Part shown: positions 47,110 through 52,308 of the stretch, in pieces
How the letters are laid out: each line of letters opens with the position of its first letter
Position numbering within the stretch: position 1 is the first letter of the stretch
Assembly: GCF_000165425.1 (NCBI RefSeq)
Contig: NW_001799178.1
Span: forward strand, 372,001 to 436,000
DNA: 64,000 nt
DNA from: Paramecium tetraurelia
Lineage: Eukaryota; Ciliophora; Oligohymenophorea; Peniculida; Parameciidae
Reading direction: 5' to 3'
Position numbers and translations under genes: made by a program
The notes under the pieces: model-generated
What the model saw: the letters and a program-made list of their open reading frames with translations, nothing else
What the model was told of the DNA's origin: nothing
Database searches by the model: none

Positions 47110-48110
47110 AATATTGAATAATGTTGAAACGCTTTCTTTCTGTAAATAGCCTCTGCAAACAGAGGAGCTAATATTAACTAGATAGGATATCAACAGACAA
47201 TCTGCAGATTCTTTCTCCTAAGATCTCATCTTCTTGGGGTTTGAAGGAATTATATTTATATAATAATTAAAAGGCAAGTATATTATAACTATAATCTAAT
47301 CTAAGGAAGGACTGGAAAGATTGATAAATTCTTTGCCAGAGAATAAGGCATGAGTTGCAAATGCAAAAACTCTAATAGCTCCTTGTTCCTTCAAGACTTT
47401 AGAGACTTCAGAGAGTGTGCTCTTTGTAAATATAAAACTATGTGTACTGCAGTATCAATCATGTCATCTACTATGATGCAATCCTGAAAATATATTATTA
47501 AGGATACATTTGAAATTTCAGTCATTCTTGTAAAAGTCTATTTTGGTTGTAATTATAATAACTGCTAATTTAAATTTTTAAGCAAGTTTATTTAGTCAAT
47601 AGTAATGTACCACCATTATTATTTTTCATGATGATGCTCTTCTTAAAGCAGATACTAATAATAATAATTCTATTAAATTATCATTGACAGGAGGAGAAGT
47701 GGATTGTATGATAAAAACATCTTTTCCTCTAATATTATTGAGAACCTAAGTTATGTATTATATAAACTTAAATTTGGCATTCCCGATATGCAAATTTTCA
47801 AGGGTCATACTTCTTAATTTAATATTCAAATATTCAGCAATCTTTAATAATCAATTTAATGGAATAATACCTTCTGCCAACTCTTTATTAGAATTACCGG
47901 ATAAGATAATAGTATTTTTGCTATGATAGATGTAAGGATATGCTAAAAATCATCTTCAGGTTCTAAAGTCCATTTAAATGCACAATTCAGCCTATCGCCG
48001 TATTTCTTGATGTTACGGTTGACTTGTAATCTTAGTTTCTATCTGTAGCAAATAGTTGATAGTAATCTAACTAACATCAGTTGTTTGGCATTATTTCGAA
48101 AGATATTATA
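47110..48110 (-). pseudogene. Decayed PRPP synthetase (ribose-phosphate pyrophosphokinase)
   Basis: Family blocks appear in order on the minus strand but in different frames: [32 protein letters not shown] followed by an in-frame TGA, CIIVDDMIDTA (the PRPP-binding loop), FAFATHALFSGKEF, and LAPLFAEAI near the end. Frame changes not explained by introns occur near the start, after the first block, before RICRLS and near the end. About 100 residues between LRRASS and the PRPP loop, including the flexible-loop and catalytic His regions, are missing or unrecognisable. Two ordinary introns (24 and 26 nt) around the PRPP loop are still intact, so the decay is fairly recent. Confidence 0.75.
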
Positions 48111-48331
48111 ATGTCTGAAATGAGCTGAAAATCTTTGTAAACATAAAAATAGATATTTTTATTCATCTTTAAACAATAAATAAGATTTCACTTTTATAGA
48201 TACTATTAATACACATTAGATAATAAATTTTAAGATTTAGAAGTATTATATACAATAATTACATAATTCAATTATTAGTTTGATAAAATAAAATAATATA
48301 AAAAGTCTTATTTAAATATATTGATTTTGAA

Positions 48332-49172
48332 ATGATTGATGATTTAGATAAGCAATAAGAAGATGATTGCATGAATTAATATTGTAGAAACGAATAAACA
48401 TAAGTTTGGCCAGCTAAATTCAGCAATTAAACTCTGTTTTTCTGTTAAGAATGTTTAAATTTATATAATGAAAAGAAGTGCTGTTATTTTTGTGCATAAG
48501 TATATATTTACATGAAAATTAAGGTTTATTCTGATGACAATTAAAATTTTTTGGATGGTCAGAAATGGATAGGCTGTGATCAGGATGGATGTGAAAAATG
48601 GGTATTATATTTATTTATAGTAGTTTAGACTCATTTATAATGTGAATCAAAAAATGGTATTTCCTAAATTGACACCTTGGTGGAAGATACTAAATATAAA
48701 TATATTTGTCCATGGTGTAGGATCGAGGATTAAAAACAAAGATTTTCAAAAGCCCCTTGCAGAATAATGAACAAAAAGGCTCTCAAGTATTTAGAAAAGA
48801 TGAATCGAAGACAGAATAACCCAAATGAATAGACATAACATAATATTTAAGCTAATGTGCAATAGTTTTATTATTGTCCATCTGCATCAAGTAAGCAATC
48901 TTATCTTGAGGAATTACTTAAGAAAAACGGTAGATGTTCAAAATAATATAATAGGTGGATTTTGTTAGTAGGCTACATAAGAGGAAATCTAAGTAGATCT
49001 TTAAAAAATGATGTCTTTAATGAAATAATGAATAAATATGTATATACTTTATTTTTATGTTATTACTCATATATTCAATTAGTGGATGAAGCAAGAAACT
49101 GTTAAGAATTTCCATATCTGCTCTGTTAATGAAGATGAGGTGGAATTTCAATGTACCCATCAAGTTTAGTGA
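48332..49172 (+). CDS. PHD-finger protein
   Basis: Introns of 24, 27 and an unusually long 43 nt give 248 residues. A Cys-rich N-terminal segment (CRNEQ, CQECLNLYNEKKCCYFC) precedes a PHD finger near residues 75-125: WIGCDQDGCEKW, then THLQCES across an intron, and a CPWC end. The long linker is Lys/Asn/Gln-rich. PHD fingers read histone H3 tails, so a nuclear role is likely. The last exon is uncertain: without the 43-nt intron the frame stops at 49130-49132 instead. Either way it overlaps the end of the convergent gene below. Confidence 0.7.
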
Positions 49173-50113
49173 TATTTAGAAGATGAAAGTGTCTAATATT
49201 TTGAAAATCTCCAATCGACTTAATGATAGCTGCGAACCTAAATTCACTGCCTCTTTCTAATTTCTCGATCTCTAAAGCTAAAAGAATCTTGAATCTTCAT
49301 TACATAATTCAGTAGCCACTTCACTATCAGCAGTCAATAATAAATCAGGGTGGAATTCACTTTCTGCTGGATCCATTTTCACTAAAATGTTAACAGAATG
49401 ATGAAGGAACTTCAATAAAGATTATTGATTATCCTCTACTCTGATCGCAAAACCTAACCTTAACAGAAATATTTTACCCTTCCAATCTACTATTGTTCTA
49501 TCGACGTACTTTTATTCGCAATATTATTAAAATTGGACATTTTGGAATACTTTTTGTTTTGAGCATTTCTCTAAATAATCAGTCCAAGTGTCAGCAATAG
49601 TGATATTAGGACTGTAATGTTGATGATAGTCCATCCACTATGAAGTGGGTATCTCCATTATCCTATACCATAACACCCCTAATGTTAAAATCAACAATGA
49701 AATTCCTATAACTATTCTTTTTGTTAAAATGATTCCCAACTCTCCAATTTTGAATGACATCATCTTTAATAATATGATAATACTCATACTGAGTCCTTTA
49801 CACCTAATACGTGAAAGACTTTTCCATCACCCCCTATTACTTGATGGCATGCAGAACATCTAAACTTATCCAATCAAAATACTTATGAATTAAAGTTCTT
49901 GTTATTAACATTATAATTGGAATTAATAGAATACTTGCCATAAATCCAAAAATTAGCAAAATTAAGAAACAAGCAATGTAGCTTAAATATCCATTCTTAT
50001 AAGTAATCGCTGAAACTGTTGAGTTCGAACAGAAAGGACATTTGATTTATTTAGGCCTACATCATATTTTAGATTTACTAATTTCCTAACACTAAATCAT
50101 TGCTTAGAATCAT
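49075..50113 (-). CDS. LITAF-like/wolframin-like fusion membrane protein, 313 aa
   Basis: Introns of 22, 23, 26 and 26 nt leave exactly 314 codons. Residues about 15-80 fit a LITAF domain: CPFCSNS, then TYKNGYLSYIACFLILLI as the membrane-dipping segment, then CSACHQVIGG as the second CxxC. A second membrane helix lies near residues 115-133 (IVIGISLLILTLGVLWY). The C-terminal ~140 residues resemble the C-terminal domain of wolframin (WFS1): a VDWKGKI strand, NILVKM, then LLLTADSEV and ERGSEFRFAAIIKSI. LITAF proteins sit on endosomes and wolframin in the ER. If the third intron were not used, the locus would read as two abutting genes sharing ATGA. Confidence 0.6.
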
Positions 50114-50504
50114 TTCTATATATGCTTATTTAATTTTAATAATATAATAATTTAACAAATCAATATATTACATAAATGTAATTTAAACCAAGGATAAATA
50201 GATAGAGACTTGATAATATTGATACTACTTAAATAGTTTATATAGATAAACATCCTATATAGGAATTGACCTACAGTTTTTAAATATATATCCTACAATT
50301 TAAGACTTACATCCTATAATGAATTTTCTTATAACAGGGTTAAAATTTTAAACAAAAATTGAAAGATAAATCCGAAATAATTATTCTAGTATCAAATAGC
50401 AATAGGAGTGACATGAAAAAGTAGCTAAATCATTCTAAATGATAAATAATACACTAATAATAACAATAATTCTTTTTTTGATATGAATATGGATTTATTG
50501 TAAA
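50114..50504. other. Intergenic region between two minus-strand genes
   Basis: About 390 bp of A+T-rich sequence downstream of the isomerase gene and upstream of the LITAF-like start. A short direct repeat of the type CATCCTATA occurs twice (near 50250 and 50310). I see no open frame of note, RNA gene or further structure. Confidence 0.5.
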
Positions 50505-52308
50505 TCATTACTTTCCTTAAAATGCTCTATAATGACTAATAAGGTTTTTGGTAGCACTGTTAGCATTAAATCCTGCAAAATCTAAATTCTAATGATTCTC
50601 AACATTTTTTAATAGAACTGATCTAACATTTTTAGCAAGAACCTTTCCTAATTCGACTCCCCATTAATCAAATGGATTGATTCCCCAAAGAATACTAAAA
50701 TTAAAATTATTTTATACCCTTCAACAAGAACTCTGTGTTCATAGAGAGCCAATAACTATCCAACATTATATGGATTGGCTTCATTTTGGAATAGAATCTG
50801 TAAACTGCATCTGTCTCCAGGGAATACTTTATGATGTTGTAATTCCTCTTTAACTCCTTCAGCAACGACTTCTTCCTTTGTCTTTCCTCTTGCTAAAGCA
50901 TCAACTTAAGCGAAGTAATTAGACATCAATTCATCATGTTAATCTCTTACAGCAGCTGGATTAGATGCTCCAGTTTCAGCTTAAGATTTAGCATAACCAA
51001 TAAATTCACAGGGTATTACTTATGATCCTTGATGAATCAATTAGAAGAAGGAATGTTATGAGTTTGTTCCTGGTTCACCAAAAATAAATGGACAGGCAGA
51101 TTTTAAATATTATTCATGCTTATCAGGATAAACAAGTGCTGTTTTACCATTACTTTCCATATGAACCTATTGGACATGAGCAGGGAATCTCAATAAGCAT
51201 TAAGCATAAGGAATCAAAGCCAAAGCTTGATATTTCTATAATAATCATTTATTTATTTACTTAGATGCTTGCTCTATACCATCCCAACAATCCCAAGAGA
51301 ACAGGTAGATTTCTGCTGACTTATTTCTCATTCACAAGATGTTAATCAATAGAATGAGCTCCGTTTAAGACTTGAGCAATATAATCATAACCAAATTAGA
51401 GACTCAGTGGCAAGACTCCAATAGCACTTGTGACACTGTATCTACCTCCGACCCAGTCCCAGAATCCAAAGACTCTTTATTCATTGATTCCAAATTTGCC
51501 TGTTTCTGCCAAGTTTGTGGATACAGCTGTCAAATGGGATTCCAATATTTCCTTTCATATTTAAATTTCAATTACTTTAGCATTTTCATGACCCAACAAT
51601 TTATATTATTCTAAAATCCAATTTCTGCATACTTTTGCATTCATAATTGTTTCTGCAGTTGTAAATGTCTTAGAGTTGATGACAAAAATGGTTTCCTCCA
51701 CATTCAAGCCTTGTAATGCTCTGATTGTATCAACGGGATCAACGTTTGCCAAAAATCTTAGTTATCTACCTTTAGATTTCAATTGTCCTTCATGATGTGT
51801 TCTTAAGGCTTCATAAATGAATTCAATTCCCAAATAGCTTCCTCCAATTCCAATGACAACTGTATTTAGCAATTATTTTTTGGTGTATCCTAAAAATGTT
51901 CCAGATCGAACGGATTCGGTAAATGTTTTGACTCTATTCAAAATTTAGTAGACATCTGGAATAACATTTTGTCCATCCACTATAACCTATTAAGCTTCTG
52001 GTGTTCTCAAGGCTGTATGTAATACTGCTCTATTTTCAGTGGAATTAAATTTGATCTATTTATAATAATTAATTCAATACTCCTGATTAGATATCCTTGA
52101 GAGTGGCAAAAAGATTTGTGTTGTCAGCTAATTGTTGGAATTGTGAAATCAATTCTGCATCTACTTTTTCGTGAGAATAATCCAACAAAATTCCATCGAA
52201 TTCTGTAACCAAATGCTTGTTTCTCTCATCATTATCAAGTAGGGTTCTTAGATGGGTTTTGGAAAGGACAGTCTCATAATAATGGGCAATCTTCTATTGG
52301 ATATCCAT
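50505..52308 (-). CDS. GPI: Glucose-6-phosphate isomerase
   Basis: Introns of 25, 24, 25 and 23 nt leave exactly 569 codons (568 residues), the usual eukaryotic length. Family signatures are complete: [32 protein letters not shown], the GEPGTNSQHSF stretch with the catalytic His, and INPFDQWGVELGK with the C-terminal catalytic Lys region. The enzyme converts glucose-6-phosphate and fructose-6-phosphate in glycolysis and gluconeogenesis, in the cytosol. No targeting sequence is visible. Confidence 0.96.

Follow-up and report, generated by a model that had tools for sequence, protein, structure and literature searches.

A LITAF domain joined to a second hydrophobic helix and a conserved C-terminal domain in a five-gene family of Paramecium tetraurelia

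We describe a gene in Paramecium tetraurelia that encodes an N-terminal LITAF domain, a second hydrophobic helix, and a conserved C-terminal domain. (It lies in a stretch of 64,000 nucleotides that was analysed as a whole, which we call the window.) The gene, its coding frame, and these three parts are real. The same order of LITAF domain, second helix, and C-terminal domain is found in five genes: the one in the window (on contig C156) and one each on C157, C2, C108, and C121. The initial annotation had proposed one spliced frame in which a LITAF domain is followed by a second membrane helix and then by another domain, and the recurrence in five genes bears this out. The arrangement adds a new architecture to the LITAF family and departs from the canonical LITAF order. 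In our preferred reading, to which we give a probability of roughly 0.55, the five genes encode a family of single-pass membrane proteins, anchored by LITAF, whose luminal C-terminal domain connects a partner in the lumen with endosomal sorting. The C-terminal domain may also be very distantly related to the C-terminus of wolframin (WFS1), the human Wolfram-syndrome protein. Literature searches, including searches for Paramecium, Tetrahymena, and ciliates, found no report of LITAF combined with wolframin.

The features of the gene, in window coordinates, are:

50113 (ATG) to 49075 (end of TGA), minus strand: the whole gene, an open frame in genetic code 6, equal in length to its duplicate on C157
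50113-50079, 50056-49883, and 49859-49790, minus strand: exons 1-3 of the preferred model (305 amino acids, six exons)
49763-49478, 49453-49304, and 49277-49075, minus strand: exons 4-6 of the preferred model
50080-49832, minus strand: LITAF domain (PF10601), residues 12-79, with CPFC, a hydrophobic segment, and HKCSAC
50078-50057 and 49882-49860, minus strand: introns that interrupt the LITAF domain
49789-49764, minus strand: 26-nt intron separating the LITAF part from the rest, also 26 nt in C157 and absent from C2, C108, and C121
49715-49659, minus strand: second hydrophobic helix (residues 110-128), with a mean Kyte-Doolittle value of 2.15 and a predicted membrane crossing
49607-49605, minus strand: N-x-S/T sequon (N146), just ahead of the TW of the C-terminal domain
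49586-49162, minus strand: C-terminal domain, residues ~153-277, with a remote resemblance to the wolframin C-terminus
49477-49454, minus strand: probable 24-nt intron (GTA...TAG), kept as coding in the earlier 314-codon model, with paralogue introns at the same place
49303-49278, minus strand: 26-nt intron within the C-terminal domain, 25 nt in C157, with none there in the models of C2, C108, and C121

The first half of the protein matches the LITAF profile. PF10601 is found with E = 4.7e-16 in a 313-residue model of the protein and E = 4.5e-16 in the 305-residue model, and the window's protein scores 59.1 bits against a curated cut-off of 23.8. As the initial annotation noted, two CxxC-type pairs (Cys 18, 21, 71, and 74) flank a hydrophobic segment, which peaks at residues 39-57. 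The other four genes likewise have cysteine pairs around a hydrophobic peak, and all four match PF10601: C157 with E = 3e-15 (56.6 bits), C2 with E = 5.1e-11 (43.0 bits), and, from genome exon matches alone, C108 with 3.5e-7 and C121 with 5.0e-6.

In the canonical LITAF family, as excerpts of PMC5142333 describe it, a proline-rich N-terminus is followed by a C-terminal LITAF domain, and the family occurs in eukaryotes except apicomplexans. The Paramecium family resembles LITAF/SIMPLE and CDIP1 in its two cysteine pairs around a hydrophobic segment and in its significant match to PF10601. It differs in that its LITAF domain is N-terminal instead of C-terminal: the first cysteine pair comes after 17-22 residues, and LITAF is followed by another helix and an additional domain. 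None of the five proteins contains a PPxY or P[ST]AP motif, so we do not expect the known human partners of LITAF to bind these proteins as they bind LITAF.

This genome has a large expansion of the LITAF family, with 80 matches listed. (Some of these are exons of one gene, and several of the listed matches are clustered on C172, for example at C172:280220-295115.) From the listed matches we drew 11 distinct other loci and recorded the position of the stop codon. In 10 of the 11, a TGA lies 0-9 codons past the matched stretch, and in the remaining one it lies inside the stretch. At least among these loci, then, a C-terminal extension is not the rule.

The early stops of other LITAF genes raise another reading of the window's gene, in which it makes two products. 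One would be a short protein with LITAF alone, ending at a TGA in the 26-nt intron if that is left unspliced; the other would be a membrane protein that starts from the ATG at 49763. The intron at the fusion point (49789-49764) ends in AAG, not TAG. If it were retained, a TGA would follow residue 94 and give a LITAF-only product, and ATG ATG comes directly next. But C157 has the same 26-nt intron, and the intron is missing from C2, C108, and C121. In those three genes, a single exon spans the second cysteine pair of LITAF, the second helix, and the sequence up to the V-x-W-x-G motif, and these exons align without gaps across the window's intron. The fusion is therefore not a splicing artefact. 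Two separate genes are ruled out by the three single-exon junctions, and we consider two products from this gene to be very improbable.

The initial annotation gave the gene exactly 314 codons. We could reproduce that count (942 nt including the stop, with introns of 22, 23, 26, and 26 nt), but it missed a probable fifth intron. Judging from the paralogues, 49477-49454 is probably an in-frame intron of 24 nt. There are several reasons for preferring a model of 306 codons. First, at this site C157 has a GTA...TAG stretch of 28 nt, which is not a multiple of three, so its retention would break the frame. Second, with the introns at this site removed, the window's gene has the same length as C157 (918 nt, or 306 codons), and the two proteins form a gapless alignment of 305 residues. 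Third, the stretch is only 0.61 identical to C157, as compared to 0.82-0.86 in exons. C108 and C121 also have 25-nt introns at this site, and C2 has a 24-nt candidate; in all three, the phase is shifted by one base. The 314-codon model was replaced accordingly. We also considered whether C157 might be a frameshifted gene or pseudogene. This was ruled out by the low dN/dS and by the 28-nt stretch, which fits as an intron.

We searched the same genome (69 Mb in 231 contigs) for relatives of the C-terminal domain. With the C-terminal halves of the window's protein and of C2 as queries, the domain was found only in the five genes. (The C2 query gave one extra match at chance level, with E = 2.95.) The aligned stretch from the second helix to the C-terminus has 32 columns that are invariant in all five. 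Both duplicate pairs have low dN/dS (by NG86, dN = 0.075 and dS = 0.918 for the window and C157; dN = 0.131 and dS = 0.877 for C108 and C121), which implies that selection is maintaining the proteins. C2, C108, and C121 also have a long, polar, acidic C-terminal tail, which is missing from the window's protein and C157, and the tails of C108 and C121 have a conserved stretch in common near their end.

The window's gene and C157 are probably ohnologues, that is, duplicates from a whole-genome duplication. Positions 47111-50148 of the window match C157 collinearly in three blocks. Past the end of the gene, positions 47111-48654 are 68-73% identical to the C157 contig and collinear with it, which is a sign of a duplicated block. 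Upstream of the gene and on the same (minus) strand, 51123-52073 contains exons for phosphoglucose isomerase (PF00342, E = 4.5e-48 and 5.3e-31). In C157, the 2.3 kb on the corresponding side of the duplicate have no DNA match to the window, so this neighbor is not common to C157 within that distance. A cysteine-rich open frame with many CxxC-like pairs also adjoins the gene (48335-48940, plus strand); the raw frame has no match in Pfam at E = 0.01.

Next to consider is the topology of these proteins. The second membrane helix of the initial annotation is present as a hydrophobic helix at residues 110-128; that it crosses the membrane is a prediction. According to excerpts of PMC5095921 and PMC5142333, human LITAF and CDIP1 are monotopic and stabilised by zinc, with both ends in the cytosol. 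If this is also true here, then the second helix would run outward through the membrane, leaving the C-terminal domain in the lumen. The charges around the helix and the placement of a sequon suggest, mildly, that the C-terminus is luminal. The window's protein and C157 have at least three lysines or arginines ahead of the second helix and none in the 15 residues behind it, and C121 has positive charge before the helix and little behind. (The charges in C108 and C2 are uninformative, with 1 and 1 and with 1 and 2, respectively.) Four of the five paralogues have a sequon at the place of N146; C2 lacks it. A caveat is that sequons are weak evidence for topology, because they also occur within the LITAF part (N23 in the window's protein).

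The C-terminal domain has a series of landmarks: W-x2-Y-x3-C, V-x-W-x-G, KMDPxES, L-E-x-G, and FH.L, in that order. It would probably have an OB-like fold. The initial annotation identified this half as a wolframin-like C-terminal domain. Profile searches do not uphold that assignment: the proteins or pieces scanned from the window's gene, C157, C2, and C108 have no match to WC-rich (PF20053) or WCOB (PF19913). Our yardstick was a fragment of human WFS1, which matches WC-rich (3.4e-36) and WCOB (1.2e-33) in Pfam. Since the fragment hits both models, it is good enough for this purpose and the Pfam library works. (Wolframin is glycosylated at two asparagines that are 85 apart, which is also the distance between two sequons in the fragment.) No Pfam family at all matches the C-terminal domain at its cut-off; below threshold, there are weak hits to the unrelated families DUF4839 (0.043) and Sigma54_activ_2 (0.018). 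PF20053 had no match in the genome at E values up to 10. PF19913 gave none at 0.001, but that search was blind, as the control likewise matched nowhere. PDB sequence searches turned up nothing convincing with the window's protein (best E = 0.31) or the five-gene profile (best E = 0.053), and the WFS1 fragment had no match there up to E = 10. A pattern search of viral contigs gave 46 matches, none of them a relative.

The Pfam results fit with a domain that is unrelated to wolframin, or related only at the level of the fold, so that the resemblance is of a kind generic to small extracytosolic beta domains. We give this reading about an even chance. It agrees with the published view, as excerpted from PMC7016017, that wolframin is uniquely metazoan. 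It also agrees with a motif test, independent of hhalign, in which 5 of 10 invariant residues were in common with WFS1. This is not significant, as the score was equalled by 208 of 4,000 shuffles (about 5%) and by 3 of 68 other pieces of the window. What speaks against this reading is the comparison of profiles. When we compared the five-gene profile to WFS1 with hhalign, the alignment was weak but collinear over both parts of the wolframin C-terminus, and better than nearly all shuffles. With the preceding helix included, the score was 30.9 (probability 32%), and without the helix it was 22.98 (probability 6%). None of 150 shuffles and none of 52 pieces from other frames of the window reached 22.98, and the reversed sequence scored 12.1. 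In a second run, 2 of 1,100 shuffles did as well, for a Gumbel p of 0.002, which is optimistic: wolframin was chosen for looking alike, so the shuffle odds make the case look too strong.

In the competing reading, the domain and the wolframin C-terminus are truly homologous, and the domain comprises the WC-rich start and WCOB but not the cysteine-rich insert, which would make these proteins LITAF-wolframin fusions. Excerpts of PMC7016017 describe the wolframin C-terminus as luminal, with an OB fold, a cysteine-rich part ahead of it, and six conserved cysteines, and in excerpts of PMC7016017 and PMC10392043 the luminal domain comes after a membrane helix. Similarly, in the Paramecium family, a helix is followed by a predicted luminal domain that opens with W-x2-[YF]-x3-C (Y in the family) and V-x-W-x-G, with a sequon just ahead of the W. 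(The spacing of the W, C, and N is not identical in WFS1; the N is off by one.) Besides having no Pfam match, the family differs from wolframin in lacking the cysteine-rich insert, which the hhalign alignment leaves as a long unmatched stretch of WFS1, and most of the six cysteines. (The C-terminal domain has one invariant cysteine across the five genes and two in the window's protein and C157.) The 305-residue product also has no multi-helix membrane region, Sel1 part, or EF-hand part. Together with the ordinary motif test and the choice of wolframin for its likeness, these differences leave true homology a tentative reading, at somewhat under even odds.

Returning to the preferred reading of a LITAF-anchored family, we can outline how such a protein might work. 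The LITAF part would fold as a zinc ribbon in the cytosol. As has been measured for human LITAF and CDIP1, its hydrophobic segment would enter the cytosolic leaflet but not span the membrane, and the chain would thus exit the LITAF part on the cytosolic side. The second helix would then span the bilayer and place the C-terminal domain in the lumen of endosomes or other endomembranes, or outside the cell. There, the domain may sense a luminal partner or cargo or keep hold of it, and the LITAF base may help to sort or curve the membrane. (LITAF supports membrane curvature, according to excerpts of PMC8353527.) The most likely function of the family would be to couple a partner in the lumen with endosomal sorting.

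Should the C-terminal domain be related to that of wolframin, then the module predates animals, contrary to the published view. A fuller scenario, which we regard as more doubtful than the homology itself, is that the C-terminal module of wolframin existed before animals did and is present here without the multi-helix core, joined by one helix to a LITAF anchor. Wolframin might then have arisen by adding the cysteine-rich insert and other parts to a cassette of a helix plus a luminal domain. Given that relationship, Paramecium would be a simple system for asking what the module does. For the LITAF family, a conserved branch that reaches across the membrane would let LITAF couple to luminal cargo.
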